From: Hydrogenivirga caldilitoris
GTDB lineage: Bacteria > Aquificota > Aquificia > Aquificales > Aquificaceae
Reading direction: 5' to 3'
Length of the DNA: 64,000 bases
Assembly (NCBI RefSeq): GCF_003664005.1
Contig: NZ_RCCJ01000001.1
Span: forward strand, 248,001 to 312,000
The translations under genes were made by a program, and so were the position numbers. The notes beneath the pieces were generated by a model, which saw only the letters and a list, made by a program, of their open reading frames with translations, made no database searches and was not told the origin of the DNA. Every line of letters begins with the position of its first letter. Positions within the stretch are counted from its first letter, which is position 1. Below are positions 491 through 64,000 of this stretch, piece by piece.

Positions 491-1798
491 GTGAAGGTTA
501 GTGTCGGTATAGTCGGTTGCGGTGTGGTCGGGACTGGAACCGTAAAACTTCTCCTGACTAACAGGGAAATCCTCAGGAAGAAAACAGGTATAGATTTCCA
601 GCTTACGAAAGTGGCAGACCTTAACTGGGAAAGGAAGAGAGAGTTTGAAGTTCCAGAGGAGCTGAGAACGACCGATTATAGGGAGGTCATTGAATCCTGC
701 GATATAGTCGTTGAACTTGTTGGAGGAAAAGAGTTTGCCAAGAAATTGATGCTTGAAGCCCTTGAAAGTGGCAGACATGTTGTAACAGCCAATAAACACC
801 TCCTTGCCTTGGACGGAGAGGAAATTTTCCTAAAGGCTCAGGAGAAAGGGCTCAGGGTTGGTTTTGAAGCCTCCGTGGGAGGAGGTATACCTGTTATAAA
901 GGCTCTCAGGGAAGGTCTTGTGGGGAACAGGATAGAGACTATATACGGGATTCTAAACGGGACAACCAACTATATACTTACCAGGATGTTTGAAGAGAAC
1001 CTTGACTTTGAAAGTGCCCTTAGAGAGGCTTCAGAGAAGGGCTACGCCGAGGCTGACCCCTCGCTGGATATAGACGGATGGGATGCAGCCCATAAGATAA
1101 ACATACTTGCTTCCCTCGCCTTCGGTAGGTACTTTCCCTTTGAAGAGGTACACGTTGAGGGTATCCGCAACATACAGAAACTGGATGTTGAGCTTGGTAA
1201 GGAGCTTGGGTATACCCTGAAACTCCTTGCTATAGCCAAAAGGTTTGATGGGGAAGCTGAGGTAAGGGTACACCCAACCTTTATACACTCAGAGGAGGCT
1301 CTTGCAAAGGTCTCAGGCGTTTATAACGCTGTGATGATAGAGGGAGATTTCGTCGGAAAGACGATGTTCTATGGACAGGGAGCAGGTTCTTTGCCTACAG
1401 CCTCAGCTGTTGTCTCAGATATAGTGGATGCAGGTATAGCTATAGTATCTGGTAATGGAGGGGAGGTAACGCCTGTTGACTGGGAAAGTGAGCCTGTTAA
1501 GGTGAGGAGAAACTTCTTCAGCAGGTATTATCTGAGGTTTGATGTCCCAGATAAGCCTGGCGTTCTCGCTGCTATCTCAAGGGTCCTTGCAGACTTCAAC
1601 ATAAGTATAGCGGCTGTTCTTCAAAAAGAGATGGTTTGCCAGCTGGCAGGAAAAAGAGGAGAGCCGGTCGTCCCCCTTGTCATACTCACCCACAAAGCCT
1701 ACGAGCAGGACGTTCAGAGTGCTCTCAAGGAGATAAGAGAGCTTCCCGTAGTTGTTGGTGAACCCGTTCTTATAAGGGTGGAAGAAGAGGCAGAGTGA
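491..1798 (+). CDS. hom: Homoserine dehydrogenase
   Basis: NAD(P)-dependent oxidoreductase that reduces aspartate semialdehyde to homoserine in threonine, methionine and isoleucine synthesis. The 435-residue protein has an N-terminal GxGxxG nucleotide fold (G9, G11, G14), the VTANKHLLA and ILNGTTNYIL catalytic-domain motifs, and a C-terminal ACT domain (YLRFDVPDKPGVLAAIS, roughly residues 345-430) expected to bind threonine for feedback control. I chose the GTG at 491 because the Rossmann strand begins right after it; the frame extends to 440, but that extension matches nothing in the family. It lies downstream of the HerA-like gene and 19 bases before rpe. Confidence 0.95.
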   Translation: MKVSVGIVGCGVVGTGTVKLLLTNREILRKKTGIDFQLTKVADLNWERKREFEVPEELRTTDYREVIESCDIVVELVGGKEFAKKLMLEALESGRHVVTANKHLLALDGEEIFLKAQEKGLRVGFEASVGGGIPVIKALREGLVGNRIETIYGILNGTTNYILTRMFEENLDFESALREASEKGYAEADPSLDIDGWDAAHKINILASLAFGRYFPFEEVHVEGIRNIQKLDVELGKELGYTLKLLAIAKRFDGEAEVRVHPTFIHSEEALAKVSGVYNAVMIEGDFVGKTMFYGQGAGSLPTASAVVSDIVDAGIAIVSGNGGEVTPVDWESEPVKVRRNFFSRYYLRFDVPDKPGVLAAISRVLADFNISIAAVLQKEMVCQLAGKRGEPVVPLVILTHKAYEQDVQSALKEIRELPVVVGEPVLIRVEEEAE

Positions 1799-1817
1799 AA
1801 TAAAATTGTTATCTGTT

Positions 1818-2489
1818 ATGGTAAAACTTCTTGCACCTTCAATACTCGCCGGAGACTGGTGGAACATAGGAGAGCAGATAGAAGCCTGCATAAGGGGAGG
1901 AGCAGATCTGATCCACTTTGACGTTATGGACGGGCACTTCGTTCCCAACATAACGGTGGGTCCAGAGATACTTTCCCACATAAGAAAGAGGGTAAGCCTC
2001 CCGATAGATGCCCACCTCATGATAGAAAACCCAGACAGGTACATACCAGAATTTGTAAAGGCTGGGGCTGATTGGGTAAGCGTTCACATAGAGAACGTCC
2101 CCCACATACATAGAACCCTCTCCTTTATAAGAGAGCTGGGGGCTAAGGCAGGGGTGGTGATAAATCCCGGAACATCCCTTTCAGCTATTGAGGAAGCCCT
2201 TCACTACGCTGACTACGTACTCCTGATGTCTGTGAACCCCGGCTTCAGCGGTCAGAGATTTATAGAGCGTTCCTTGGAAAGGCTTGTACTTCTTAGGGAT
2301 ATGAGAGATAGACTTAACTCCGATTGTCTTATAGAGATAGATGGGGGAATAAAGGAAGAAAACATAGCAAGCGTTGTAAGAGCTGGAGCTGACGTTGTGG
2401 TTGTGGGTTCCGGCATATTCGCTTCGGAAGACCCGGAAGGTCAAACAAGGAAATTAAAGGAGCTTATCTTCTCCGCAACGGCAGTTTGA
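1818..2489 (+). CDS. rpe: Ribulose-phosphate 3-epimerase
   Basis: Interconverts ribulose 5-phosphate and xylulose 5-phosphate in the pentose phosphate pathway. The 223-residue TIM barrel shows the family motifs APSILAGDW, HFDVMDGHFVPN (metal and catalytic residues), MSVNPGFSGQ (phosphate-binding loop) and EIDGGI. The ATG at 1818 places APSIL at the usual distance from the N-terminus; an in-frame TTG at 1806 is less likely. The last 26 bases overlap the 3' end of the convergent lptD gene, so the two stop codons lie inside each other's coding sequence. Confidence 0.95.
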   Translation: MVKLLAPSILAGDWWNIGEQIEACIRGGADLIHFDVMDGHFVPNITVGPEILSHIRKRVSLPIDAHLMIENPDRYIPEFVKAGADWVSVHIENVPHIHRTLSFIRELGAKAGVVINPGTSLSAIEEALHYADYVLLMSVNPGFSGQRFIERSLERLVLLRDMRDRLNSDCLIEIDGGIKEENIASVVRAGADVVVVGSGIFASEDPEGQTRKLKELIFSATAV

Positions 2490-4461
2490 TGTCCTTCATG
2501 TTGAATAGGGTAAACACCAGGAACACCTCCCGTAAGTATCCTTTTTCACTTCCAAAGAAGCTCCTCCTGTAGTCGGCTTTCAACACCCAGCATGCCCCCT
2601 TTAATCCCAGGTACAGATTTCTGAACAGCTCCTGCTTAGTTATGTTGTCTTTCGTTATTGAGCCGCCGAATATAAATCTCCCTAAGTTCACTTCACCTTT
2701 CAGGGTGTATTGGTCTGTGAGTTTCTCCGCTTTGCTATCCTGGGACATAACGTAGCTTGCACTTAGGCTTGTGTTTAAAACCTTGATGCTGGCAGAACTC
2801 ACGCTGCTCGCAAAGATGCCGAGGTTTGCATCATAGGTTGTGTCTTCGGATAGAGTTAACCAGGTAGTGGGGTAAAGGGAGAGTATCAATCTGAAGGGTA
2901 GCAGGCTCTTTTCCACAAGCTTGCTGTCGGTTGGGAATCTGTAAGACCTCAGGAAGTTGTACCCGCCCTCCAGGAAAAGGCTTGAAAGAGTTCTACCCCC
3001 GTAACTCAGGCTTGAGCTATATCTGAGCTTGAGGTTGTTCTCTTTGGTAACCTGGTCAAAACCGTCAAGCTGGGGGTTATTGAAGTTCTCTGGAGAAAGG
3101 GAGTAAACAAACTCAATGCTATTGGAGAGGGACATATCCTTCCAGGAAAAGCTTTTGAAAAAGGGTAACCTGTTTTCAAACTGAAAGGAGCTTACTCTCT
3201 CGTCAGAGAACTCGTTGCTTCCTTCGGTGAAGTAAAAATTATTAACGAATTTAACACTCATATAGTTATTTAGATTGAAGAGTTTTACAGGAAGCTCCGC
3301 TTGAGGGATGAATATCAGCCTTTTCGTTCTGAGCCCTTCCTCTCTGTGAAAATTTGTGAAGGTACTGGTTAAGCTCAAGAACACGGGACCGAACTGTTTT
3401 GGTCTTGAGTAAAAACCGAACTCAGGCAAAAGGTTTAAGGTTGCCCTGTTGTCATCTGAGGTCAGATCATAGTAGTTTCTAAGGTTGAATGAGAGGAGAT
3501 AGTCTTTTTCAAGCCTGCTGTAGGTTATGTAGGAGAGTGTGTACGGCAAGGTTCTGCTCTCATGAGCGAAGTAAACGTCCTCAAAGAAGTAAGGGTCTGA
3601 GGGTATATCAAGTCCAAACTTCCACCCTCTGAACCCAGTATCAAACTCAAGCCTGAACCTGTTTTCCCTGAAGGTTTTAAGGTTCCTGCCCTCCCACCAT
3701 TCAGCGGGAGGTGCCGGTTCTTTGTAATAAGAAAGCCTGAAGTACAGCCTGTCCTTAACGGTGAAAGCCTGTCTGTACTCAAGGGATAAGCCTTTTGCCT
3801 GTTTGTCCCTGTAGTCTAAAGTCAAAGTTGCGTCCTTGTCTTCAGATATAGCCCAGTAAAAGGGCTGGATGTATACGAAGTTATTGTATGTATTACTGCC
3901 CAGCATAGGAGGTAAAAGACCGGACCTTCTCTCCCCCACGGGGAAAACGATCACAGGACTGTAGAGAATTGGTAAATTGAAGAACTTGAGGGAGTTGCTG
4001 AAGGAGAAGACATAGCTGTTAGTGACCTTTGCCTTCCAGAAGCAAACCTTCAGCTCCTTTTCATCAGGTGGACAGGTTGTCACCTCACCTTCATGGATCT
4101 CGTACATGTCCTCGGATATCTTGTCTACCCTCTTTGCATTAAAGTAGAACTTGTTAAATTTCCCCTCCGCATCCAGGAAATATCCCACCTCCTTTTCAAG
4201 GTCTATGTAGGCTTCTTTTCCGAGGACTTCAAGGGTTCCGTCTTTTCTCCTTATGTGGACATTGCCGTAAGCATAAACCTCCTTGCTCTTCGGGTTGTAC
4301 TTTACTCTTTCAGCCTTTATCGTGTATTCCCTGTACTCGGCTTCAACGCTACCTTCCGCTATCAGGTTTCCCTCTGTATCGGTGAAGAGTTTCTCGGATA
4401 AAATCTCAACGCCCAGAGATACAGAAACAAGCGTTAGCAGAAGAGCCAGCCATTTAATCAC
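2464..4461 (-). CDS. lptD: LPS-assembly protein LptD (OstA)
   Basis: Outer-membrane beta-barrel that inserts lipopolysaccharide into the outer leaflet. The 665-residue protein begins with a short signal peptide (about residues 1-17), followed by an OstA/LptA-like jellyroll domain (about 25-130, with the EAEYREYTIKAERVKYN segment typical of the family) and a long region of alternating aromatic/hydrophobic strands making the barrel. It ends in a basic LPLRRR tail after the last strand. The start is a GTG that overlaps the TGA stop of the upstream HAD gene (GTGA), so the two are translationally linked. It is the last gene of the moxR-HAD-lptD group. No lptE is seen nearby. Confidence 0.88.
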   Translation of the reverse strand: MIKWLALLLTLVSVSLGVEILSEKLFTDTEGNLIAEGSVEAEYREYTIKAERVKYNPKSKEVYAYGNVHIRRKDGTLEVLGKEAYIDLEKEVGYFLDAEGKFNKFYFNAKRVDKISEDMYEIHEGEVTTCPPDEKELKVCFWKAKVTNSYVFSFSNSLKFFNLPILYSPVIVFPVGERRSGLLPPMLGSNTYNNFVYIQPFYWAISEDKDATLTLDYRDKQAKGLSLEYRQAFTVKDRLYFRLSYYKEPAPPAEWWEGRNLKTFRENRFRLEFDTGFRGWKFGLDIPSDPYFFEDVYFAHESRTLPYTLSYITYSRLEKDYLLSFNLRNYYDLTSDDNRATLNLLPEFGFYSRPKQFGPVFLSLTSTFTNFHREEGLRTKRLIFIPQAELPVKLFNLNNYMSVKFVNNFYFTEGSNEFSDERVSSFQFENRLPFFKSFSWKDMSLSNSIEFVYSLSPENFNNPQLDGFDQVTKENNLKLRYSSSLSYGGRTLSSLFLEGGYNFLRSYRFPTDSKLVEKSLLPFRLILSLYPTTWLTLSEDTTYDANLGIFASSVSSASIKVLNTSLSASYVMSQDSKAEKLTDQYTLKGEVNLGRFIFGGSITKDNITKQELFRNLYLGLKGACWVLKADYRRSFFGSEKGYLREVFLVFTLFNMKDIKLPLRRR

Positions 4462-5237
4462 TCAAATATTTTATTCTCAAGCTCTCGGAGACTGTGGAAT
4501 ATGTAGTCTGGTTTAAAGTTTGCCCTCTCCAGCTCCTCTTCTTTATATTTTCCTGTTGTCATAAAGACAGTTTTTATACCGAGTTCTTTCGCCCCAATAA
4601 GGTCTGTGTATATATCGTCACTTACAAGGTATACCTCTTCCCTGGGGAGTCCTTTTAGAGCAAGCTCTATAAAATCTCTGGAAGGCTTGCCCAGATTTGG
4701 AAGCTCCTCCTTGTACTGGGTTGCGTAGGCGAGCATCTGTGCCACAGAGCCCGCTCCAGGGAAGTACAGCCCGTCCGAATCTTTCACTATCCGTGACAGA
4801 TTCACGGGTATTATCTTTGCCTTCTTCAGGAACACCGCTGATGTGGCAATCTTTAACTTCAAGAAATCTATCTCCTTATCCTGCCCAACGACTACAGCAT
4901 CAACCTCGTAGCTCTCTCTCACGTTGAATCCTTCATCCTTTAAAAAGCTTGCCAGCAGGCGAGTTCCTATAACGAATACCGAACTTATGCCTTTACTCCT
5001 AAGATACTCTGGCAATATTCCTACAGGGGAAACAAAATCTTCAAGGTTTAGAGGGAGACCCTTAACTCTCAGTTTGTGGACTATAAGATTCGGGGAACGG
5101 GTAGAGTTGTTGGATACTACTCTAAATGGAATTCCTTTATTTTTGAGATTTCTTATGAACTCTGGAGCATACTCAAAGGGGTTAAATTCTTTGTCCCTGG
5201 TGAGAACTCCATCCATGTCTATGAGAAGCGTAATCAT
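4458..5237 (-). CDS. HAD-superfamily phosphatase, NagD-like (HAD-IIA)
   Basis: Predicted Mg-dependent phosphatase of 259 residues. Motif I is LIDMDGVLTRD (nucleophile D7 and acid/base D9), motif II VVSNNSTRS, motif III the Lys of NLGKPSRD, and motif IV LVSDDIYTDLIGA. The large cap between motifs II and III places it in subclass IIA with NagD, 4-nitrophenylphosphatases and sugar-phosphate phosphatases. The substrate cannot be told from sequence. It starts 6 bases after the moxR stop and overlaps lptD by 4 bases, so all three are probably one transcript, although no functional link is obvious. Confidence 0.85.
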   Translation of the reverse strand: MITLLIDMDGVLTRDKEFNPFEYAPEFIRNLKNKGIPFRVVSNNSTRSPNLIVHKLRVKGLPLNLEDFVSPVGILPEYLRSKGISSVFVIGTRLLASFLKDEGFNVRESYEVDAVVVGQDKEIDFLKLKIATSAVFLKKAKIIPVNLSRIVKDSDGLYFPGAGSVAQMLAYATQYKEELPNLGKPSRDFIELALKGLPREEVYLVSDDIYTDLIGAKELGIKTVFMTTGKYKEEELERANFKPDYIFHSLRELENKIFE

Positions 5238-5243
5238 GATTAA

Positions 5244-6149
5244 CTACCTCGGAACTTCTATCCTCTGAAGTATACTTTTTATGGCTTCCTCCTTGTCTAC
5301 CCCTTCTCTTACGATTATCCTGTGGGAGAGAACCGGAACTGCCATTTCAAGGACATCCTCTGGAACCACAAAATCCCTTTCTTTGGAGTATGCCAGAGCA
5401 CGGGCGCACTGGACCAGGTGTATTGCTCCCCGCGTGGATATGCCGAGAATTATGTTCGGATCTGAGCGGGTTTGAGAGACCAAGTCAACGACCATTTCTG
5501 CTATCTCCGAGGATACATAAACCTTTTTAACCTCTTGTGTAGCATTCAGAATCTCCTGAGCGTTGGCTACCTCCCTTATTAGATTCACCCTTTCAAGGGG
5601 GTTTGTACCCATTACTATCTCTTTCTCAGTTTCACGGTCTGGATAGCCCAGAGAGAGCTTAACCATAAACCTGTCCATTTGGGATTCAGGCAGTGGGTAA
5701 GTACCGTAGTGCTCCAATGGGTTTTGGGTAGCTATCACGAAGAAGGGTTCAGGTAAAGGATAGGTTTTACCGTCAACAGTAACCTGCCTCTCAGCCATAG
5801 CCTCAAGCAGAGCGCTCTGGGTTTTAGGTGTAGCTCTGTTTATTTCATCAGCGAGGACTATGTTGTTAAATATCGGACCGGGTTTGAATACGAACTCCCT
5901 TTTAGACTGGTCAAAAACCGAGCTCCCGGTTATATCCGAGGGCAGGAGGTCACTTGTGAATTGAATTCTGGAAAAGGATAAGCTCATGGACCTTGATAGG
6001 GCAAGAGCAAGGGTGGTTTTTCCAACACCAGGTATGTCTTCAATCAGTAGATGTCCTCCGGCAAGGAGACAGACAACAGCTCTCCTTATCTCCTCTTCCT
6101 TCCCCCTTACTACCTTCGCTATCTCCTCAACCACAGCGTTTATATTCAT
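5244..6149 (-). CDS. MoxR-family AAA+ ATPase
   Basis: Chaperone-like AAA+ ATPase of 301 residues. Walker A is IPGVGKTTLA (K44) and Walker B VLADEINRATPKTQ (D101, E102); the sensor region ATQNPLEHYGTYPLPESQMDRF is diagnostic of the MoxR group. MoxR proteins usually assist metal-cofactor insertion or assembly of a partner complex together with DUF58/VWA proteins. Here no DUF58 or VWA gene is adjacent, so the partner is unknown. The start codon is only 28 bases from the divergent AEC transporter start, so the two promoters must overlap each other or the coding sequences. Confidence 0.9.
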   Translation of the reverse strand: MNINAVVEEIAKVVRGKEEEIRRAVVCLLAGGHLLIEDIPGVGKTTLALALSRSMSLSFSRIQFTSDLLPSDITGSSVFDQSKREFVFKPGPIFNNIVLADEINRATPKTQSALLEAMAERQVTVDGKTYPLPEPFFVIATQNPLEHYGTYPLPESQMDRFMVKLSLGYPDRETEKEIVMGTNPLERVNLIREVANAQEILNATQEVKKVYVSSEIAEMVVDLVSQTRSDPNIILGISTRGAIHLVQCARALAYSKERDFVVPEDVLEMAVPVLSHRIIVREGVDKEEAIKSILQRIEVPR

Positions 6150-49438: not shown

Positions 49439-51940
49439 TTACCTTATGTAACTCTCAAACTCTTCAGGGGGAACGGGCTTCCCAAAGTAGTAACCCTGGG
49501 CGTAATCGCATCCAAGTTCCTTTAAAATCTCAGCCTGCTCTCTCGTTTCAACCCCTTCCGCCACAGTTTTAAGACCAAAGCTCTTCGCGATATTCACGGT
49601 GGCTTTCACTATCTCAAGGTTGTCTTCGTCTTGGGGTATACCCTTTACGAACTCCCTGTCTATCTTTAGAGCGTAAACGGGGAGTTTTTTCAGGTACGCG
49701 AGGGAGGAGTAACCTGTCCCGAAGTCATCTATGTACGTCCTTATACCCCTCACCGTAAGGATTTTGAGTATCTCTATCATCCTCTCTACGTCCTCCATGA
49801 CAGCGGATTCTGTTATCTCAACCTCTATACTCCCAGAACCTTCTCCACACCCAAATATGAGCATCATGAAGCTCTCCGCAAAGAGGGGAACCTTCATCTG
49901 CAGAGGGGAAACGTTCACGGCTATGGATAGCTCTATTCCCTTTGACCTCCACTCCTGTGCCTGTCTGCAGGCTTCCCTTACCACCCACTCCCCAACCTCA
50001 TGTATGAGCTCACTCTCCTCCAGGAGAGGTATGAACTTTATGGGGGGGACTATCTCTCCACCTCTGTTCCACCTGAGGAGAGCTTCGGCACCAACCACCT
50101 TCTCCGTTCTCAGCTCAACCTTAGGCTGGTAGTAGAGGAGGAACTCCTCCCTCTCCAATGCTCTTCTGAGTTCTGTCCTGAGCTTGACCTTCTCAAAAAC
50201 CTCCCTCTCAGCGGTTTCTGAGTAGTAAACGGTCCTGTTCCCACCAAACTCCTTAGCCCTCTGGAGTGCTGAGAGGGCTTTTGAATAAAGCTCTTCTATC
50301 TCCTCCGGAAAGGAGGATACACCTGCGGAGAGGGTTATAAAGAGCTCGTTTGAGTTTATCTTGAAGGGTTTTCTAAGCCTGTTTCTTATCCTCCTGAGAA
50401 GCTTTTCCGCAGCTTCCCCTGCGTCCTCGGCAAGGAGTATTATGCCGAACTCATCAGCACCAACCCTGCCGATAAGGTCAGACCCTCTTATCTCCTTCTT
50501 TAACCTGGTGGCTATCTCTTTGAGTAGTCTGTCAACCTTTTTGTGTCCAAAGGCTTCATTAAGCTCCGAAAAGTTATCTATATCAAGGAGAAGGAAGGCA
50601 ACCTCCTTCTTATCCCTCTTTGCCCTCTCAAGGACTGTTGGTAGCTTGCTCAGGAGTGAGGTTCTGTTCAGGAGACCCGTCAGGGGGTCATAAACTTCAA
50701 GGGCTTTGAGTTTCTCTTTAGTCCTTAAATTCCTCAGACTGAAGGATATGTCATGGGCAACCTCTCTGAGGAGCTCAATCTCTTCCTTAGTGAAGTCCTC
50801 CTCAAACCACCTTGATATGAGCAGGTAAAGACCGTTCTCCTCCATAGGCACGCAGGCTGAGGTGTCGCTTTCCAGGAACGTCCCCTCCTCCGCTATGGCT
50901 TTGTCCTCCCCTTTTCTAAAAATACCCACGTATCTGAAACCTCCCTCCCTAATTATGCTTACGGCTGAGCTAAAAAGCTCCTCCTCTGAACCTGCCGTTG
51001 TGGTAATGAAGTTTATCCGGCTGAGGGTCTCATAAAGCCTGTTTAACCGCCTTATAGCTTCTTCTCTCCTTAGTCTCTCCCTTATGTCTCTGAATACTCC
51101 CACAACGTAAGTTCTTTCCTCGTGTTCAAAGGTTCCGTAGCCTATCTCAACGGGTATCCATTCTCCCGTTCTCTTGTTCTCTACGTACTCAACTTCGGTA
51201 ATCCCTGCTCCCTTCTCTATGTACCTACTGAACTTCTCTCCAACGGTGTGCCTTACCTCCTCCGGGTGGACCCAGAGGGCGTCCCTCCCTATAGCTTCCC
51301 TTTCGTTCTCAAGACCGAGGAGTTCAAGGGCAGAGGCATTCAGGTCAGCTATCCTACGCGTTTCAAGGTCAACCACTATTATCGCGTCTCTTACAGAGTT
51401 CAGTATAACCCTGTACCTCTCAGCCTCAACCTTTATGATCTTTGAAAAGAGGTAAGCGTCAAGGGAGAGGGTCAGGTCAAGGATGACCACCTTAAAGAGC
51501 GCAAGGAGTGTGGACAGGAGCTTATCTTTTTCCGTTTTTTCTTCTATTACGGGCAGGACAGACTCAACCCATTTGGCAAAGGCTCCTGTGTAATACTTTG
51601 GCTCAACACCGGCTTTCTCATGAACCTGTCCCACCTTCAGCCTTGAGAGGGCGTAGTCAAGGCTGTATTCCCCTTCAAGGAGTTCCCTGAAGTACTTAGC
51701 CTGAGCTTTCTTCAGTCTTTCAATGAGGCCCTCCTCCCTCTCAAGTATCTTTCTCATCTCCTCAAAGGATAATAGGTGTCTGTAAAACTCTCCAAAGAGT
51801 TCTGCTATCTTCTCCTCACTAACCTTACCAGATAGCTCTCTCAGGAGCCCTATATCTTCCTCGGACAGGCTTACGTAAGAGAGTCTTCTCTTTATTTCCT
51901 CTTCACTGAGTTTAAGGAGTTTGGCTATCCTCTCTATCAC
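49439..51940 (-). CDS. Globin-coupled PAS-GAF-GGDEF-EAL protein (probable c-di-GMP phosphodiesterase)
   Basis: Multidomain signalling protein of 833 residues. Residues 1-175 are a globin-coupled sensor with the proximal His107 in QVHEKAGVEPKYY, so it probably binds heme and senses O2 or another gas. A PAS domain (about 175-300), a GAF-like region (about 315-405), a GGDEF domain with degenerate GADEF (RVGADEF) and an EAL domain follow. The EAL domain has EALLRW, NVSP, ITES, DDFGTGYSSL and AEGVET, so it should hydrolyse c-di-GMP. I chose the GTG at 51940, seven bases after a TATATT box; TTG at 51949 is an alternative. Confidence 0.87.
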   Translation of the reverse strand: MIERIAKLLKLSEEEIKRRLSYVSLSEEDIGLLRELSGKVSEEKIAELFGEFYRHLLSFEEMRKILEREEGLIERLKKAQAKYFRELLEGEYSLDYALSRLKVGQVHEKAGVEPKYYTGAFAKWVESVLPVIEEKTEKDKLLSTLLALFKVVILDLTLSLDAYLFSKIIKVEAERYRVILNSVRDAIIVVDLETRRIADLNASALELLGLENEREAIGRDALWVHPEEVRHTVGEKFSRYIEKGAGITEVEYVENKRTGEWIPVEIGYGTFEHEERTYVVGVFRDIRERLRREEAIRRLNRLYETLSRINFITTTAGSEEELFSSAVSIIREGGFRYVGIFRKGEDKAIAEEGTFLESDTSACVPMEENGLYLLISRWFEEDFTKEEIELLREVAHDISFSLRNLRTKEKLKALEVYDPLTGLLNRTSLLSKLPTVLERAKRDKKEVAFLLLDIDNFSELNEAFGHKKVDRLLKEIATRLKKEIRGSDLIGRVGADEFGIILLAEDAGEAAEKLLRRIRNRLRKPFKINSNELFITLSAGVSSFPEEIEELYSKALSALQRAKEFGGNRTVYYSETAEREVFEKVKLRTELRRALEREEFLLYYQPKVELRTEKVVGAEALLRWNRGGEIVPPIKFIPLLEESELIHEVGEWVVREACRQAQEWRSKGIELSIAVNVSPLQMKVPLFAESFMMLIFGCGEGSGSIEVEITESAVMEDVERMIEILKILTVRGIRTYIDDFGTGYSSLAYLKKLPVYALKIDREFVKGIPQDEDNLEIVKATVNIAKSFGLKTVAEGVETREQAEILKELGCDYAQGYYFGKPVPPEEFESYIR

Positions 51941-52036
51941 AACCTCCAATATACAGAATTTTACAGAAAAAACCAACTGGTTTCCGTCATACAGTGAAAC
52001 TTCTTGAGGAGTAAAGTAAAAGAGGGGTGGTGCAGT

Positions 52037-52321
52037 TTGAAAAAGAAAACTTACGTATTTGACAACGCCACGCTTGAAGTGCTCCAAACTCTTAGGGAAG
52101 AGCTGGGGAAGAAGGAGACGCAGATAATCCGTGAGGCTCTCAGGCTTTACTTAGACAACCACAGAACCAACGGTGAAGTTATGAACTCTCTTAACAAGCT
52201 TGTAGAGAGGATAGAAAACGTTGTAGAGCGAGTATCGGAACTTTCCTACAAACTCGGAAGGTGCGAGGAGAGAACAAAAAGGCTTGAAGAGGAGATAAGA
52301 AAGCTTAGAGGGGAAAGGTGA
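52037..52321 (+). CDS. Small ribbon-helix-helix protein with coiled-coil tail
   Basis: Protein of 94 residues. Residues 1-45 look like a ribbon-helix-helix DNA-binding domain (KKTYVFDNATLEVLQTL, then KKETQIIREALRLYLDN); the rest is a charged helix predicted to form a coiled coil. It starts at a TTG after a GAGGGGTGG site; an earlier TTG at 52004 would overlap the upstream promoter region. It is divergent from the globin-GGDEF-EAL gene and 12 bases before trxB, so it could regulate either. No toxin partner is visible. Confidence 0.65.
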   Translation: MKKKTYVFDNATLEVLQTLREELGKKETQIIREALRLYLDNHRTNGEVMNSLNKLVERIENVVERVSELSYKLGRCEERTKRLEEEIRKLRGER

Positions 52322-53926: not shown

Positions 53927-55114
53927 TTACTCATTCCTCAGTATATTGACCACATTCTCCTTTGCCGCTCTGAAGGCAGGAAGAAGGGAAGAGAAGAAAG
54001 ATAGAAGCAAGGTTCCCATAAAGGTTGCAACGAGGTCAAGGGTCTTTATATGAACGGGTATGTAACTCATCATGTAAACCTCTTCAGGCACCCTTATAAG
54101 CCTGTATTCGTTTATAAAGTATGCGAGTACAAAGGATACGATAACACCTAATGTGGCGCCTACAAAGCCTATACTCAATCCTACGGAGATGAATATTCTG
54201 AGGATACCCCTACTTTCCATACCGAAGGTCTTTAAGACAGCTATGTCCCTTACCTTTTCCTTAGATTTTACAAACAGGAGGCTCGTTATGTTGAAGGAGG
54301 CTACCAAAACCATGAGAAGCAGTATCAGGAACAGGGCTAACTTCTCAAGCTGAAGAGCATTGAAGAGGGGTTTATTCAGGTCTATCCAAGAGCGGACAAG
54401 CACAAGCTCGTTGCTTATCAGCTTTTCTATGTTCTCTTTAACCTCCTGAGCCCTGTAAGGATCATGTATGTAAATCTCAATTCCTTCAAAACGCATACCC
54501 CTCTTAAAGAAAGCTCTGGCTTCCTTTTCATCCATGTAGGCTATGACGAAGTCTTTATCGTAAGCACCGGTCTGGAATATACCACCTATGTAAACTTCCT
54601 TAGTCTTGGGTATAAATCCTGTGGGTGTCCTTATACCTGTGGGAAATATAAGGACAGCTGAACCTCCCGGAGATACACCCAGAACATCTGCAATACCCTT
54701 TCCTATAACAACGTCTTTAAGCTCACCCCTTATCAGGTGGCTACCTACAAGCTCCCTAAAAGCTTTTTCCCTGTAGTTTACAGCCTTAACTGTAACAGGT
54801 TGAAGTCTATCTTCCCTGCCGAGTATGGCGCTGTACAGTGTAAAGGGAAGAGTGTCTTTAACACCGGGTACATTCTCAATTTTCCTCCTTATACCTTCTA
54901 AATCTGCCTCTCCTATGACGCTTACGATTACGTGGGGTGCTGTTGAGAGTATCTTTTCCTTTAACGAGTCCTGGAATCCTGTGAACACACCAAGCGTGAG
55001 CAATATTGCGCAGACACTCAGGAAGACCCCCAGAAAGGATATCAACGTTATAAGAAGAGTGCTGCCTTTAACTGACAGCAGGTACCTGAGTGCGAGCTTG
55101 AATGTGAGACTCAT
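53927..55114 (-). CDS. Lipoprotein-releasing ABC transporter permease (LolC/LolE type)
   Basis: Membrane protein of 395 residues with one N-terminal helix (about 17-45), a large periplasmic MacB-PCD-like domain (about 50-245) and three C-terminal helices of the FtsX-like permease domain, including KVRDIAVLKTFGMESRGI and the final LLPAFRAAKENVVNILRNE (key PAFRAAKENVVNILR). Only one permease gene is present, so the transporter is probably a homodimer of a LolF-like protein. It overlaps the PilZ gene upstream by 4 bases. Confidence 0.88.
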   Translation of the reverse strand: MSLTFKLALRYLLSVKGSTLLITLISFLGVFLSVCAILLTLGVFTGFQDSLKEKILSTAPHVIVSVIGEADLEGIRRKIENVPGVKDTLPFTLYSAILGREDRLQPVTVKAVNYREKAFRELVGSHLIRGELKDVVIGKGIADVLGVSPGGSAVLIFPTGIRTPTGFIPKTKEVYIGGIFQTGAYDKDFVIAYMDEKEARAFFKRGMRFEGIEIYIHDPYRAQEVKENIEKLISNELVLVRSWIDLNKPLFNALQLEKLALFLILLLMVLVASFNITSLLFVKSKEKVRDIAVLKTFGMESRGILRIFISVGLSIGFVGATLGVIVSFVLAYFINEYRLIRVPEEVYMMSYIPVHIKTLDLVATFMGTLLLSFFSSLLPAFRAAKENVVNILRNE

Positions 55115-55809
55115 TCAATAAACCTCAGAGCCTGTATTATCTCCTTCTGTCTGTTAATTACGTACCTCCTTATCTTTGTAAGCTCCTCTTTTGGAAAATC
55201 AACCTCAAAACCAAGACGGACGTAAATGTCTTTACCCAAGCCAACCACATTCTTCAATCTACCTTTGCCAACTGCGGTACCGTTTTCTGGCAGGTGTATC
55301 TTTAGGGGAAACTCTACCGATTCGTCTTCTTTCAGCTCCTCTATACTATCCTGCAAAAACTTTACAAACTCTTTGTTCTCGTCAATTTTCAAGGACAATC
55401 CTATGCCCCTTTCACTTATATCCTTTACCGGGAGTTCAAACTTGTGTCCATCAAAGGTCAGCTCAACAATCACAGGTCTGTTGTCGTCAGGTTCAACACG
55501 AACGGAGTGTCTTTTGATGAACTCCGGAGGTTCAACGAAGTTTTCCAACGTAAGAACAAGCTCTTTGCCAAGGTTGCTAAAGACCTGTGTTTGAGCGTAC
55601 TCCTTTGAAGATAGTCTTATGTAAACCGGGTCAAGGGTTGAGAAGGCTGCCCTTATGTGGGTCTTTCCCCAATCAAATCCCAAGAGCCTCCCCTCGTTGT
55701 CAACCCATTTTAATCTCAGTTGGACCTTTACAGGAATCTCTTTGTATTTGGTCACTATGTCATACTGGTCCCCAACTTTAAATATCTCCGAAACCTTCAG
55801 CTTATCCAT
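55111..55809 (-). CDS. YcgR-like PilZ-domain protein
   Basis: Candidate c-di-GMP receptor of 232 residues with a PilZN/YcgR-N-like barrel (about 1-95) and a PilZ domain that has both motifs intact (R100-HSV-R104, DISERG at 130-135). It lacks the helical N-terminus of the other two PilZ proteins. In many bacteria YcgR-type proteins act as flagellar brakes, but here it is cotranscribed with lolC-lolD. Confidence 0.82.
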   Translation of the reverse strand: MDKLKVSEIFKVGDQYDIVTKYKEIPVKVQLRLKWVDNEGRLLGFDWGKTHIRAAFSTLDPVYIRLSSKEYAQTQVFSNLGKELVLTLENFVEPPEFIKRHSVRVEPDDNRPVIVELTFDGHKFELPVKDISERGIGLSLKIDENKEFVKFLQDSIEELKEDESVEFPLKIHLPENGTAVGKGRLKNVVGLGKDIYVRLGFEVDFPKEELTKIRRYVINRQKEIIQALRFIE

Positions 55810-58329: not shown

Positions 58330-59295
58330 ATGAAAGTCTTGGTTACAGGTAGCGCCGGTTTTATAGGCTGGAAGGTCTGCGAGGTTCTTCTGGATACTGG
58401 ATACGAGGTTGTGGGTGTTGACAATCTCAATGACTATTATGACCCGAGTGTAAAACTCTGGAGGTTAAGACAGCTTGAGAATAGAGAGGGTTTTAAGTTT
58501 TATGAGTTAGACATAGAGGACTACAAAGCGCTTGAAAGACTCTTTTCTTGCGAAAGGTTTGATGCGGTTATAAACGAAGCTGCCAGAGCAGGAGTAAGGT
58601 ACTCTATGGAAAACCCGCACGTTTACATAAGCACCAACGTTGCAGGCACCCTTAACCTCCTTGAGCTCATGAAAAAACAGGGCATAAAAAAATTTGTTCT
58701 CGCTTCAACCTCATCCCTTTATGCGGGACAGCCGATGCCTTTTAAGGAAGAGCTACCCGTAAACACACCCATATCACCTTACGCAGCTTCAAAGAAAGCT
58801 GCCGAAGTTCTCTCCTATACCTACCACTACCTCTACGGTATAGATGTGGCTGTACTCAGGTACTTTACCGTTTACGGTCCTGCGGGCAGACCAGATATGA
58901 GTCCTTTCAGATTTATATACTGGGTTATGAAAGGGGAACCCATACAACTTTACGGGGACGGTTCACAGGTAAGAGACTTTACCTACGTGGATGACATTGC
59001 CAATGGTACTGTAAAAGCTTTAAGCGTAAAGGGCTATGAAATAATAAATCTGGGAAATAATACTCCTCATAAGCTCACGTATATGATAGAGCTTATAGAG
59101 AGGTTCACAGGTAGGAAAGCGAAGATAAATTTTGGAGAGTTTCACAAGGCTGACATGAAAGAAACATGGGCGGACATAACAAAAGCGAAAAATATATTGG
59201 GCTGGGAGCCAAAAACCTCTTTAGAGGAAGGCATTGAGAGAACGGTAAGGTGGTTTGAGGATAACTGGGACTGGATTGAGAGCATCAGGGTATAG
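58330..59295 (+). CDS. NAD-dependent nucleotide-sugar epimerase (UDP-glucuronate epimerase-like)
   Basis: Extended short-chain dehydrogenase of 321 residues. The Rossmann motif is VTGSAGFIGWKV, followed by the NDYYDPSVK segment characteristic of UDP-glucuronate 4-epimerases, an ASTSSLYAG serine and the catalytic YAASKKAAE. A role in LPS or exopolysaccharide precursor synthesis fits the adjacent cellulose synthase locus. The stop TAG overlaps the 3' end of the opposite-strand tRNA-Val gene by 3 bases. Confidence 0.9.
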   Translation: MKVLVTGSAGFIGWKVCEVLLDTGYEVVGVDNLNDYYDPSVKLWRLRQLENREGFKFYELDIEDYKALERLFSCERFDAVINEAARAGVRYSMENPHVYISTNVAGTLNLLELMKKQGIKKFVLASTSSLYAGQPMPFKEELPVNTPISPYAASKKAAEVLSYTYHYLYGIDVAVLRYFTVYGPAGRPDMSPFRFIYWVMKGEPIQLYGDGSQVRDFTYVDDIANGTVKALSVKGYEIINLGNNTPHKLTYMIELIERFTGRKAKINFGEFHKADMKETWADITKAKNILGWEPKTSLEEGIERTVRWFEDNWDWIESIRV

Positions 59296-59365
59296 GCGGG
59301 ACGGGACTTGAACCCGTGACCTCCGCCTTGTAAGGGCGGCGCTCTCCCAACTGAGCTACCCGCCT
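59293..59365 (-). tRNA. tRNA-Val (anticodon TAC)
   Basis: 73-base cloverleaf on the minus strand: acceptor AGGCGGG with CCCGCCT, D arm TAGCTCAGTTGGGAGAGC, anticodon stem-loop CGCCCTTACAAGGCG with TAC, T arm ACGGGTTCAAGTCCCGT. The discriminator is A and CCA is not encoded (TAC follows), unlike tRNA-Glu. The 3' end overlaps the stop codon of the epimerase gene. Confidence 0.95.
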
Positions 59366-59513: not shown

Positions 59514-60938
59514 ATGAGACTAGCCCCAAGAATTCCCTTTAAAAGGGTAATCTATGTAAAATGCAGGAATGGGTGGCTTAAAGCTTCTGGGGAGGACATA
59601 TCTCTATTTGGTGTTAAGTTCAGCCTTGAGAGATGGGAGGAATGTGAAGATAAAGACTGGGTAAAACTTAGGATAAAGTTTAACGGCAGTGAAGCAACCC
59701 TAAACGGGAAGATATATAGGAAAGAGAATAGCATTAGGGGTGTGGTTCTTTTCAATGAGGATGATTCCTTCCTTTCTAAGACGGTCGGACGTATAATAAC
59801 GACCCGCATAAAGGACAGCAGAACCTGTCCGTACTGTAAATCCCAGGTTAATGATGATGATGATGTAGAGTGCCCAAATTGTCATATGCCTCTTGACTTC
59901 ACAAAAGTTGACCTTATAAAGGCTCTCCGACGTATAAAGTTAGGGGATATACTGTCCGGTAAAGTTCCAGACCTGATAAAGGGACAGATTTGCCAGGAAG
60001 AGAAGGTAGAGTTTATAGGTACCTGCGATTGTATGAAGAAGGTCTTTGATCTGATAAGGAAGTATGCCCTTACGGATTATCCTGTTTTGATACTCGGTGA
60101 GACGGGAACAGGGAAAGAGCTTACAGCAAAGGCTATTCACGAGAAGAGCCCTCGCCGGAATGGACCCTTTATAGCTATCAACTGTGCAGCTATACCTAAG
60201 GAGCTCCTTGAAGCCGAGCTCTTCGGGTACGAGAAGGGAGCCTTTACAGGAGCTGATAAGCAGAAAAGGGGTAAGATAGAGGTTGCGGACGGAGGCACTC
60301 TATTCCTAGACGAGGTGGGAGAGCTTCCCCTTGAGCTCCAAGCCAAACTCCTCAGATTTCTGGAAGACCTATCCTTTGAAAGGGTAGGTGGCACTGACAG
60401 GATTAGAGCGAACGTTAGGGTAATAGCTGCTACAAACAGAAACCTTGAAGAGCTTGTTGAGAAAGGTCTGTTTAGAGAAGACCTCTACTACAGGCTGAAG
60501 GTGTTGACCATTGAACTTCCACCCCTAAGGGAGCGTGGGGACGATGTGATAGTTATGGCAAAGTACTTTCTTGAAAAATTTACAAGAGAGCAGGGTAAAG
60601 AGATATTGGGCTTCACCGATGACGCCCTTGAGCTTATAAAGAGTTATCAATGGCCCGGAAATGTAAGAGAACTCATAAACACCATCAGGAAGGCTATAGT
60701 CTTAACTGATAAGAAATACATTGATTCTGGAGACCTTGACATAGATGTAGAAAAGCTCTCAAAGGATATAAGCGGTAAAGGTATATTCAACCTGAAGGAG
60801 CACGTTGAAAAACTTGAAAGGGAATTGGTTGAAAAGGCTTTCAGGATCACCGGGGGGAATATAAGCAGGATGGCTTCTATGCTTGGTGTGAGCAGACCCA
60901 CCATCTACAAACTTATGGAAAAGTACGGTCTCCTTTAG
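59514..60938 (+). CDS. Sigma-54 activator with PilZ-like and zinc-ribbon N-terminus
   Basis: Bacterial enhancer-binding protein of 474 residues without a receiver domain. Residues 1-95 form a PilZ-like domain with both c-di-GMP motifs (R2-LAP-R6; DISLFG at 28-33). Residues 105-123 form a CPYC...CPNC zinc ribbon. An AAA+ sigma-54 interaction domain follows with Walker A GETGTGKE (195-202), the GAFTGA loop (242-247) that contacts sigma-54, and Walker B FLDEVGELP; residues about 440-474 are a Fis-type helix-turn-helix. GAGAGGGGGG is the ribosome site. The likely target is the convergent bcsA operon, which carries a sigma-54 promoter. It shares a 4-base TTAG overlap with the BcsS-like gene. Confidence 0.88.
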   Translation: MRLAPRIPFKRVIYVKCRNGWLKASGEDISLFGVKFSLERWEECEDKDWVKLRIKFNGSEATLNGKIYRKENSIRGVVLFNEDDSFLSKTVGRIITTRIKDSRTCPYCKSQVNDDDDVECPNCHMPLDFTKVDLIKALRRIKLGDILSGKVPDLIKGQICQEEKVEFIGTCDCMKKVFDLIRKYALTDYPVLILGETGTGKELTAKAIHEKSPRRNGPFIAINCAAIPKELLEAELFGYEKGAFTGADKQKRGKIEVADGGTLFLDEVGELPLELQAKLLRFLEDLSFERVGGTDRIRANVRVIAATNRNLEELVEKGLFREDLYYRLKVLTIELPPLRERGDDVIVMAKYFLEKFTREQGKEILGFTDDALELIKSYQWPGNVRELINTIRKAIVLTDKKYIDSGDLDIDVEKLSKDISGKGIFNLKEHVEKLERELVEKAFRITGGNISRMASMLGVSRPTIYKLMEKYGLL

Positions 60939-61606
60939 AATCCCCAGTAAAGCTCAACTCCTGCGTAGGCACTGTTTCCCTTAGAGCTATTCTTATAACC
61001 GCCTCTCAACCCTAAGGACAGACCATAAAACTTTAACTCTACGATAAGTCCGCTTTGAATGGCGCTGTAGTCCTTGTTCCCCTGACCTATGACCTCTCCA
61101 CCGATATTTAAGCTTCTGTTAAGTTCCTTTTTCAACCTTGCCCTTGACCACAGGTAAGAGGTGGCGGAGCTGTAGCTTGCTATAAAGTCTGCCCCATAGC
61201 CTTTTCCAAGGCTACCGTAAGCTTCTATCTGGGCAAGTAAGCTATCCTTCATACCTTTGACCTCAACCCCTGGTATATTCGGGCTTACATCGGTATCCCT
61301 TCTCTCCCAGCCTGCCCATAGGGTAAAACTCCATGCGTTGTACCTTCTCTTTACACCTCCTGATAGTTGAAAGGCAGGTGCTTCAGCTCTCACGTTTGTA
61401 CCGTTTTGCTCAAACTTATAGACCAGATAGTCTCCCCAAAACTTGGCAAGAAGTGACGTTTTTGAGTTAACTGACTTCTCAGCCATTAAACCAACGTAGG
61501 AGTATGACTGCCCTTTTGTATCAGCCTCAGAGCCTGATAAAAAACTGAGAGACTGAGCGTAAGAGCATGAAACTAAGAATGCGGTGACGATTATAAAATT
61601 TCTCAC
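60935..61606 (-). CDS. BcsS-like outer-membrane beta-barrel protein
   Basis: Secreted protein of 223 residues. The N-terminus is a signal peptide with a possible SPI site after SYA or a lipobox (LVSC with Cys14); I cannot decide between them. The rest alternates short amphipathic strands rich in Tyr, Phe and Gly and ends in the aromatic YWGF expected of outer-membrane barrels. Resemblance to cellulose biosynthesis protein BcsS is suggested by fold and neighbourhood. It starts 15 bases after bcsA and is co-transcribed with it, so it may help export or organise the polysaccharide. Confidence 0.65.
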   Translation of the reverse strand: MRNFIIVTAFLVSCSYAQSLSFLSGSEADTKGQSYSYVGLMAEKSVNSKTSLLAKFWGDYLVYKFEQNGTNVRAEAPAFQLSGGVKRRYNAWSFTLWAGWERRDTDVSPNIPGVEVKGMKDSLLAQIEAYGSLGKGYGADFIASYSSATSYLWSRARLKKELNRSLNIGGEVIGQGNKDYSAIQSGLIVELKFYGLSLGLRGGYKNSSKGNSAYAGVELYWGF

Positions 61607-61621
61607 GATTTACTCTCCTTA

Positions 61622-63772
61622 TCAGGTTGTTACCTGCATATCCTGTACTCCAAAGTCATAGCTTGGTCTTTGCACCAGAACTACTCCGTATCTGTATGCC
61701 TTTATGCCGTAAAAATTTATCTCCTTTGACCAGAGAATTTCTCCGTTCACGAGGCTTTCCTCGCCCTCACTGACGACCTTTAGTGAGATATAACGGCTTT
61801 CTATAGGTTTGTAGGTCAGTATCCTTAATCCCTGTTCACTTATATCCTCCGTTGTATAGGGAACAAAATCTCCGTTCACAAACACAAGACCCGGTCTATG
61901 GATTTCCAGTCTCTTGGTTCTTCTCTTGGGGCGTTTCTCTTTTAGATAGGAGACGACGAGGGATATCGGAGTGTTTGAGGGCTTATCATGTTTTTCCATA
62001 TACTTCTTAAGCAGAAAGCGGAAGTTAAAGAGATTTATAACCTTTTCCTCCTCTGGGGTTATGTTGTTAAATCTGACACCAAGCTTAAAGAGTCCTGACT
62101 CCTCTATCTTCTTTGAATACAGAACCTCCCCTTTGAGATTAAGCTTCCTGTCCTTGAAACTAATTTGTACCTCTATATTCTCACCCCTTTCAAAGCCTAT
62201 CTGAGATAGGAGCGCTGTGCCTCTTTCGTGGAGGTCCTCAACGGTGACGGCTGTATGAGTGTTCTTGATTCTCGCTATGGCAGGAAAGTTCGCCGGAAAC
62301 CTGAACCTCTCCCTTTGGTGTCTTTTGTGTAAGGTCCAGAACAGACATGCCCCGGCTATTCCAGTATTCAAAGAAGCCCAGAACATATTTGCCACGTAAA
62401 GGTCCTTGTTTGGAAGAACTTTAAAGTTCACGAGGGCGTAGAGAATACCCACTGCTCCAGCGCTGAGAACCCCAAGCTGTGGCAGAACTTCCCTTAAAGG
62501 TACTTCCCTTCCGTTTTCCTTACTGGTTACCCTGAATCCTGTCTTCCTTTTTAGGAAGCTAAAGACCGATTTTATAAAGGTAAAGAACCTTGCCATGTTG
62601 TACTGTTCAAGGAGCAGAAACTTTCCATGACCCCTTGACATCTCATCAAAAGCCCACAGGGATAGGAGTATGTGGGGCAGGAATACAGGTAGAAACTCTT
62701 TCAAGCCGACACTTATGGGAAATATCCCAGTAAGTAAGACGACTGCGGGAGCCGTGTAATATATCGCCTTCTGAAAACCGTCAAAGTAAGTTGTCATAGA
62801 GGCAAGGTAGCTTATCCTCTGAGGCAGACTCAATCCCCTTCTAAAAATTGGGTTTTCTTTGCTGAAAAGAATTTGCATAGCACCTTTTCCCCACCTCTCT
62901 CTCTGAGTTCTATAGGGAGAGAAAGTTGAGGGTGCCACTCCGTAAGCGAGGGTTTCTGGGTGGTACACCGACTTCCACCCTTTTGCATGAAGCCTTATGG
63001 CTGTGTGGATATCCTCCGTCACGGTTCCTGTGGCAAAACCGCCTATGCTTTTAAGAGCCTCTCTCCTTATGACTGCGCAGCTACCGCAAAAGAAGGCTGA
63101 ATTTATCCTGTCTTTACCCCTAAGTATCACCTTATAGAAGAGCGACTCCTCGTGCCATAACTTTCCTTTTGCAACCCTGTGCTCATAGGAATCTATATTG
63201 TAAAAATCCTGAGGGGTTTGAACGAAAGCTACCTTTTCATCCTCAAAGTATCCGAGGGTCTTGTGCAGGAAGTCCGGTTCAGGGACATGGTCGGCATCAA
63301 AGATAGCTATGAAGTCTCCTTCAGTGCTCTGAAGTGCGTTGTTAAGGTTGCCGGCTTTCCCTTCCGTATTCTTATCCCTGGCTATGTATTCACATCCCAG
63401 CTCCGCGCACAACCTTCTTATCTCCGGTCTGTTCTTGTCATCAAGGACGTAGGTCTTATGAGGGTACTCTATGGCGAGGGCTCCCTGTATGGTCTTTTTG
63501 AGTATATCAGGACTTTCGTTGTAGGTTGGTATGTAAACGTCAACCTTTAAACCAGCCTTTGGTGACTTTGGTTCTCTTTTTGGAAACTTCCAAACCATGA
63601 AGAAGAACATCAAGCCTGCTAAGAATCCGTAAACCTCAGCTCCGTAAACAAGAAGGGAAAAGAACATGGCATCCTTGTTCAAGGTACCGAGTCTCCAGAT
63701 AAGGTAGTAAAGGGAAACTCCTACCGATACAACAACTAAGGCTCTTCTCAGGCTATCTATATCCATGCGCAT
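61622..63772 (-). CDS. bcsA: Cellulose synthase-like glycosyltransferase with two PilZ-like regions
   Basis: Membrane GT2 processive glycosyltransferase of 716 residues. Two N-terminal helices (about 10-62), the catalytic domain with LDD (110-112), DAD (159-161), FFCG (227-230), TED (252-254) and QRERW (290-294), then further helices (about 320-390, 430-480). Two PilZ-like regions follow: the first (about 484-590) has R487-ERF-R491 but DLHERG (513-518) with His instead of Ser; the second (about 612-716) has R617-RTK-R621 and intact DISEQG (643-648). C-di-GMP activation is therefore likely. No bcsB or bcsC is in the window. The ATG at 63772 follows AGGAGGT; a sigma-54 promoter lies just upstream. 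Confidence 0.92.
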   Translation of the reverse strand: MRMDIDSLRRALVVVSVGVSLYYLIWRLGTLNKDAMFFSLLVYGAEVYGFLAGLMFFFMVWKFPKREPKSPKAGLKVDVYIPTYNESPDILKKTIQGALAIEYPHKTYVLDDKNRPEIRRLCAELGCEYIARDKNTEGKAGNLNNALQSTEGDFIAIFDADHVPEPDFLHKTLGYFEDEKVAFVQTPQDFYNIDSYEHRVAKGKLWHEESLFYKVILRGKDRINSAFFCGSCAVIRREALKSIGGFATGTVTEDIHTAIRLHAKGWKSVYHPETLAYGVAPSTFSPYRTQRERWGKGAMQILFSKENPIFRRGLSLPQRISYLASMTTYFDGFQKAIYYTAPAVVLLTGIFPISVGLKEFLPVFLPHILLSLWAFDEMSRGHGKFLLLEQYNMARFFTFIKSVFSFLKRKTGFRVTSKENGREVPLREVLPQLGVLSAGAVGILYALVNFKVLPNKDLYVANMFWASLNTGIAGACLFWTLHKRHQRERFRFPANFPAIARIKNTHTAVTVEDLHERGTALLSQIGFERGENIEVQISFKDRKLNLKGEVLYSKKIEESGLFKLGVRFNNITPEEEKVINLFNFRFLLKKYMEKHDKPSNTPISLVVSYLKEKRPKRRTKRLEIHRPGLVFVNGDFVPYTTEDISEQGLRILTYKPIESRYISLKVVSEGEESLVNGEILWSKEINFYGIKAYRYGVVLVQRPSYDFGVQDMQVTT

Positions 63773-63797
63773 ATGTTTTACCTCCTGGTGTTATATG

Positions 63798-63813
63798 TGC
63801 AATTTTCATGCCA
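63798..63813 (-). promoter_or_regulatory. Sigma-54 (-24/-12) promoter of bcsA
   Basis: The minus strand reads TGGCATGAAAATTGCA, matching the sigma-54 consensus TGGCACG-N4-TTGCW at all but one base, with the GG and GC elements 10 bases apart as required. The start of transcription would be near 63787, giving a 15-base leader that includes the AGGAGGT site of bcsA. Confidence 0.85.
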
Positions 63814-63865
63814 GTAGCAAACTGTTGCTAATAAAGGCTTTTCTTTTAGGGCTATTTTTATCATG

Positions 63866-63882
63866 TGTATAGGATGTTTACA
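63866..63882. promoter_or_regulatory. Candidate activator site 1 (TGTATA-N5-TTTACA)
   Basis: TGTATAGGATGTTTACA: inverted arms with one mismatch and a 5-base spacer. The centre is about 87 bases upstream of the predicted bcsA transcription start, a typical position for a sigma-54 enhancer site. Confidence 0.55.
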
Positions 63883-63920
63883 CTATTCCGCAAGTGTATG
63901 TGTCTGCTTAACGAATCCTG

Positions 63921-63937
63921 TGTAAACACTCTTTACA
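63921..63937. promoter_or_regulatory. Candidate activator site 2 (TGTAAA-N5-TTTACA)
   Basis: TGTAAACACTCTTTACA: perfect 6-base inverted arms with a 5-base spacer, centred about 142 bases upstream of the predicted bcsA start. It is the best copy of the motif. Confidence 0.65.
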
Positions 63938-63940
63938 GAA

Positions 63941-63957
63941 TGTAAGTCTTCTTTACA
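63941..63957. promoter_or_regulatory. Candidate activator site 3 (TGTAAG-N5-TTTACA)
   Basis: TGTAAGTCTTCTTTACA: inverted arms with one mismatch and the same spacer, exactly 20 bases from site 2, about two helical turns, which would place two activator dimers on the same face. The remaining bases of 63773-64000 show no gene. Confidence 0.6.
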
Positions 63958-64000
63958 CAAAGTCAAAACTTTATAGGTATCCTTAGCTCAACCATATAGT

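Follow-up and report, generated by a model that had tools for sequence, protein, structure and literature searches.

A three-site palindrome array upstream of bcsA in Hydrogenivirga caldilitoris and its candidate PilZ-domain sigma-54 activator

Background

Two features of the locus described here, the class of DNA site (the PrsR box) and the use of three sites at one promoter, were already known. Haft et al. (2006) attributed to the regulator PrsR a 17-nt motif with TTTACA at its end, which is sometimes repeated and lies about 63 nt upstream of a sigma-54 site (PMC1569441). In NorR, three enhancer sites are needed for oligomer assembly and ATPase activity, the oligomer most likely being a hexamer (PMC2941729). 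FleQ, the type case of c-di-GMP-responsive enhancer-binding proteins (bEBPs), binds c-di-GMP at its AAA+ domain (PMC12564702). BrfA of Pseudomonas fluorescens, an enhancer-binding protein that senses c-di-GMP, is described as a direct activator of the fap amyloid operon (PMC13101488), and co-located fapD-fapF homologues occur in five phyla beyond Proteobacteria (PMC6173800). The literature surveyed contained little on matrix control in thermophilic Aquificota.

Here we analyze a 64 kb stretch of the 1.75 Mb H. caldilitoris genome (G000:C1:248001-312000, hereafter the window), in which palindromes precede a cellulose-synthase-like gene and a PilZ-containing sigma-54 activator is encoded close by.

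Results

Three palindromes upstream of bcsA

The bcsA gene (61622..63772, minus strand) encodes, according to Pfam and NCBIfam models, a cellulose-synthase-like glycosyltransferase with two PilZ domains, and is accompanied by a gene for a bcsS-like outer-membrane cellulose biosynthesis protein (60935..61606, minus strand; Pfam CBP_BcsS, E=1.7e-13). The second, C-terminal PilZ domain of BcsA (61622-62020, minus strand) scores 22.9 bits against a cut-off of 22.5 and carries RRTKR and DISEQG, and the first has DLHERG in place of DxSxxG. The intergenic region upstream of bcsA (63773-63962) contains a predicted sigma-54 promoter of the -24/-12 type (63798..63813, minus strand; TGGCATGAAAATTGCA), which agrees with the consensus used at 11/12 positions and is conserved in relatives; sigma-54 itself is encoded in the genome.

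All three TGTAWR-N5-TTTACA palindromes of the preliminary description were recovered, at 63866, 63921 and 63941. The putative proximal enhancer site (63866..63882; TGTATAGGATGTTTACA; 11/12) is centred 61 bp upstream of the -24 TGGCA and is kept in relatives. The putative distal pair comprises a promoter-nearer site (63921..63937; TGTAAACACTCTTTACA), which is a perfect 6+6 palindrome, and a far site (63941..63957; TGTAAGTCTTCTTTACA; 11/12) offset from its partner by 20 bp, as originally noted. Relative to the T of TGGCA the centres lie at -61, -116 and -136, and the distances first given (-87, -142 and -162) agree with these if the start site is placed 26 bp further down. The outermost palindrome ends 5 bp from the stop codon of the upstream gene, whose 3' end (63963..64000, minus strand) is, by profile matches, that of a FapF/FilC-like channel gene, the last gene of an amyloid-type operon.

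Short AT-rich dyads form easily, and about six weaker 10/12 sites are scattered over the window, which would favor a chance origin. Against this, none of 20,000 dinucleotide shuffles of the 228 bp upstream of bcsA contained at least three sites of at least 11/12 (mean 0.004), and no further site of this quality was found elsewhere in the 64 kb window. With one mismatch allowed, there were 8 strand matches in the window versus 1.0 expected, a number that none of 100 shuffles reached. Taken together with the conservation of the sites in relatives, the shuffles rule out chance, the probability of which we consider negligible.

Genome-wide distribution of the sites

Scanning the genome for the motif and its enrichment at -24/-12 promoters, a check proposed when the palindromes were first noticed, bore out the association. 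The genome contains 11 strict sites (TGTAWRN5YWTACA), compared to 3 for a reversed control, and eight of the 11 lie upstream of sigma-54 promoters, at four promoters, against a chance expectation of about 0.01. From the promoter side, 4 of the 14 strong sigma-54 sites (TGGCAN6TTGCW) are preceded by strict palindromes. When weaker sites are admitted, each of the four promoters has a pair offset by exactly 20 bp plus, 55-73 bp nearer to the promoter, a proximal site, and a tandem-pair scan (at most 2 mismatches) returned exactly those four loci, the reversed pattern returning none. The initial statement that other intergenic regions lack the motif therefore holds within the window but not for the genome, where it also stands before three further sigma-54 promoters. 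These data support widening the interpretation from the bcsA promoter to a four-promoter regulon with fixed array geometry.

Besides bcsA-bcsS, the array precedes the operon directly upstream of bcsA and in the same direction (L011, G000:C1:310500-322000, 1464-5933, minus strand), which lies mostly beyond the window and has its own sigma-54 promoter and three-site array about 5 kb outside it. This operon encodes proteins of 646 aa (with a signal-like start), 127 aa and 129 aa, none of them named by a Pfam or NCBIfam model, together with a C39 peptidase and a channel. The peptidase resembles FapD/FilB (E=2e-34 / 1.5e-49) and the channel FapF/FilC (E=8e-47 / 1e-41), in each case below the curated NCBIfam cut-offs (119 of 330 bits for FapD, 160 of 700 bits for FapF), and on these sequence matches we call the operon only Fap/Fil-like. 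The two remaining targets are predicted to be secreted repeat proteins, one of 929 aa with DUF7948 and SBBP beta-propeller repeats and the other a beta-helix protein of 453 aa; in relatives the array likewise precedes amyloid-like and adhesin-like genes.

Three strict palindromes have no strong sigma-54 promoter in reach. One, at 1158360 (L013 2861; G000:C1:1158360), overlaps a type IV pilin-like gene at its start, and the intragenic singletons are at 206625 and 218359. We regard these three as background or undecided.

Conservation and geometry of the array in relatives

Ten relatives with a bcsA orthologue have upstream sites at matching distances from the sigma-54 promoter, three in most cases and only two, degenerate, in G001 and G011. 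In an alignment of six bcsA upstream regions, the arms of the sites and the promoter are conserved and the remaining sequence is scrambled. The arrays of relatives precede bcsA, genes for beta-helix-like proteins and genes for proteins that share the same ELEEVSA-type start. A second genus (G018, G076-G078) has the same array at bcsA and at the amyloid-type operon, with the activator gene and bcsA on different contigs.

Among 25 tabulated arrays the pair is spaced by 20 bp in 19 and by 18-22 bp in all, a set that was partly found with the 20-bp pattern and is therefore biased towards 20; neither the bcsA set in relatives nor the four H. caldilitoris promoters were selected in this way. The distance from the pair to the proximal site is 54-58 or 65-80 bp in the same 25 arrays.

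The tandem pair was also found in named records, including Aquificaceae/Aquificales MAGs. In the Bacteroidales loci L127, L136, L139, L141, L142 and L143, a tandem pair lies about 70 bp upstream of sigma-54-like sequences, of the TGGCATNNTTTTGGCA type in four loci and TGGCATGGCGATTGCT in L142, no good sigma-54 site being found near the pair in L127. The genomes of these six Bacteroidales contain genes for activators of the receiver type that end in (I/V)SRPTLY helices. As this helix is probably common, its presence is only suggestive of a link between site and helix. The Bacteroidales loci probably form a regulon of their own with sites of the same class.

A sigma-54 activator with an N-terminal PilZ domain

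The activator gene (59514..60938, plus strand) was identified from Pfam matches, alignments and the predicted fold. It encodes a PilZ domain (59517-59732; Pfam E=4e-7), a zinc-ribbon-like CxxC-CxxC motif seen in alignments (59826-59882), a AAA+ sigma-54 interaction domain (60015-60515; PF00158, E=1e-72) and a C-terminal Fis-type HTH (60804-60926; PF02954, E=4e-10, residues 431-471). The GAFTGA motif is present in nearly all orthologues. With this architecture, and with putative target promoters of the -24/-12 type having upstream dyad sites, the protein has the hallmarks of a bEBP. It is one of seven bEBPs encoded in the genome and the only one with an SRPTIY recognition helix (GVSRPTIYKLMEKYG).

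In the PilZ domain, RxxxR is represented by R2/R6 and (D/N)xSxxG by D28-I-S-L-F-G33. None of 26 orthologues departs from R2, R6 or S30; position 28 holds D or N, and position 33 is G in all but genus g3, which has A. The four cysteines of the zinc-ribbon-like motif are as conserved as the PilZ arginines. Solved structures yielded no match to the N-terminal domain by sequence. A fold search did find matches: the N-terminal model (mean pLDDT 83) has PilZ domains, including 4i86, as its best structural matches, and many of these structures were solved with c-di-GMP.

No array was found upstream of the activator gene in the window, and autoregulation through such an array was rejected. A tRNA-Val(tac) gene (59293-59365, minus strand) lies between an epimerase gene and the activator gene. 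Also in the vicinity are genes for a protoglobin-PAS-GGDEF-EAL protein (49439-52087, minus strand), about 7 kb from the activator, and for a further PilZ protein (55111-55809, minus strand), and it is possible that these reflect oxygen-linked c-di-GMP control. In genome G014, a singleton site near the activator had no sigma-54 site with a score of at least 9 in the stretch examined.

Co-occurrence of array and activator

Of 136 Aquificota genomes, 11 have the tandem pair and 29 the N-terminal part of the activator; 10 have both (Fisher p=4.5e-7, a value that ignores shared ancestry). Within the genus, activator-bearing genomes have more sites (one-sided Mann-Whitney p=0.017). The 20-bp pair, with 2 mismatches allowed, is missing from 19 activator-bearing genomes, and six of these (G001, G005, G006, G009, G011 and G014) have a bcsA with 18-22 bp pairs or degenerate sites. 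Conversely, G010, a 91% complete assembly, has an array and no detectable activator, and all of its five bEBPs are without an SRPTIY-type recognition helix. Its array (L193, G010:C1:698500-702500, 1593-1763) is complete, with three sites and a sigma-54 promoter, and precedes an open frame of 177 aa. This case may reflect loss of the activator, a missing contig or another binder.

Discussion

Which protein binds the array

Because the distribution of the tandem pair in the phylum follows that of the activator gene, even where activator and bcsA are on different contigs, the palindromes are candidate sites of this activator, and the activator is in turn the candidate binder because it alone among the seven bEBPs carries the SRPTIY helix. 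The link between site and helix has independent support, since PrsR was assigned a 17-nt motif ending in TTTACA and no NCBIfam model matches the activator better than TIGR02915, that of PrsR (409.4 bits, below the curated cut-off of 502.6). The prediction that the palindromes are enhancer sites of the neighboring activator thus gains from the promoter association, the conservation before bcsA and the co-distribution with the activator gene, and we are fairly confident that they are upstream activating sites of the protein encoded at 59514-60938, serving a matrix regulon under c-di-GMP-gated sigma-54 activation. Binding by this protein, and activation rather than repression as the outcome, are what we infer from the arrangement.

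The sites might instead belong to one of the six other sigma-54 activators, mostly of receiver or GAF types, with the PilZ protein a mere passenger. The array of G010 without a PilZ activator would fit this, as would the receiver-type activators with an SRPTLY helix in Bacteroidales carrying the same tandem pair. Nevertheless, the six have different recognition helices, bEBPs that share C-terminal helices with three or four of them are present in other genomes, G010 included, and do not follow the arrays, and it is the PilZ activator that the tandem pair follows; we consider this explanation quite unlikely. Still less probable, and in our judgment very improbable, is that an unrelated regulator, e.g. 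a repressor, uses the palindromes as operators and acts at the same promoters by coincidence. TGTAAA-N5-TTTACA is a generic dyad, and there are singletons inside genes and at the pilin-like gene without a strong sigma-54 site, but the placement upstream of sigma-54 promoters is fixed at many loci, the sites co-occur with the activator, and the PrsR-box precedent agrees.

The nature of the signal is a separate question. PilZ domains that do not bind c-di-GMP are known, and it is conceivable, if rather unlikely, that the activator binds the array and responds to something else, its PilZ ligand having been lost or changed and its input being the zinc ribbon or the expression level. The substitution in DxSxxG in genus g3 and the strict conservation of the four-cysteine motif could be taken this way, whereas the retention of R2, R6, S30 and a D or N at position 28 in 26 orthologues, and the presence of BcsA, itself a PilZ protein, among the targets, argue for c-di-GMP. 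Given a conserved PilZ fold and signature, a PilZ-containing BcsA and a GGDEF-EAL protein nearby, c-di-GMP is the likely signal of the activator.

Proposed mechanism

In the model that we favor, one Fis-HTH dimer would sit on each 17-bp palindrome. As three dyads correspond to three HTH dimers, the array could hold the six DNA-binding domains of a single AAA+ hexamer; within it the members of the close pair are separated by about two helical turns, and the proximal site is found 54-80 bp further towards the promoter. Sensing of c-di-GMP most likely falls to the N-terminal PilZ domain, which may thereby gate hexamer assembly or ATPase activity, after which the DNA would loop and the AAA+ ring would open the sigma-54 polymerase complex at TGGCATGAAAATTGCA. 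Since the same array serves the Fap/Fil-like amyloid export operon, bcsA-bcsS and the two secreted repeat proteins, one signal may switch on the whole extracellular matrix.

Significance

The presence of the three-site array before amyloid-like and adhesin-like genes as well as bcsA suggests that a single switch controls the whole biofilm matrix. We lean, by a narrow margin, towards placing the activator in a class of sigma-54 activators whose c-di-GMP receptor is a dedicated PilZ domain rather than the AAA+ domain, and for which a three-dimer array has nearly fixed geometry, and one Aquificota matrix switch covers amyloid-type fibres, a cellulose-like polymer and adhesins, with BcsA itself as a second c-di-GMP gate. 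The literature surveyed yielded no bEBP described as having a PilZ receptor, which is not proof of absence, and the combination of PilZ input with an amyloid-cellulose regulon in Aquificota appears to be new. The locus offers a complete predicted regulon, from receptor and DNA site to promoters and targets, for biofilm-matrix production in thermophilic Aquificota. The about 25 natural arrays with nearly fixed spacing provide material for asking why a hexameric sigma-54 activator needs exactly three dimer sites. Furthermore, that a PilZ domain stands in place of a receiver domain while the class of DNA site is apparently shared suggests a route by which c-di-GMP control could be grafted onto an existing sigma-54 matrix regulon.

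Comparison with described systems

The closest relative in terms of DNA site is the PrsK-PrsR system with its PEP-CTERM promoter motif 1, which shares the AAA+/Fis family, the site class and the -24/-12 promoter, and whose targets are secreted matrix-associated proteins. The palindromes match the published motif in the features compared, namely a length of 17 nt, a TTTACA end and a position upstream of a sigma-54 promoter, and in both systems the link between motif and regulator came from phylogenetic-profile logic. PrsR carries a receiver domain and is partnered by a histidine kinase, whereas no N-terminal receiver domain of the PrsR type was found in the activator with Pfam, its place being taken by PilZ and the zinc ribbon. 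The strict three-site array and the amyloid/cellulose targets also set H. caldilitoris apart from PrsR.

Three sites upstream of a sigma-54 promoter, as at the array promoters here, are likewise found for NorR, although the NorR site sequence differs and its input is a GAF domain sensing nitric oxide. FleQ, FlrA, VpsR and BerB resemble the activator in being AAA+ activators that couple c-di-GMP to exopolysaccharide genes, but as described in the literature surveyed they have no PilZ receptor domain. The operon upstream of bcsA resembles Fap / Fil operons in its adjacent C39 peptidase (FapD/FilB-like), outer-membrane channel (FapF/FilC-like) and secreted proteins. Functionally, BrfA is the nearest case, with c-di-GMP sensing and a fap amyloid operon as its target; in the literature surveyed (PMC13101488), a connection of BrfA to cellulose or PilZ, such as that seen in H. 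caldilitoris, is not described.
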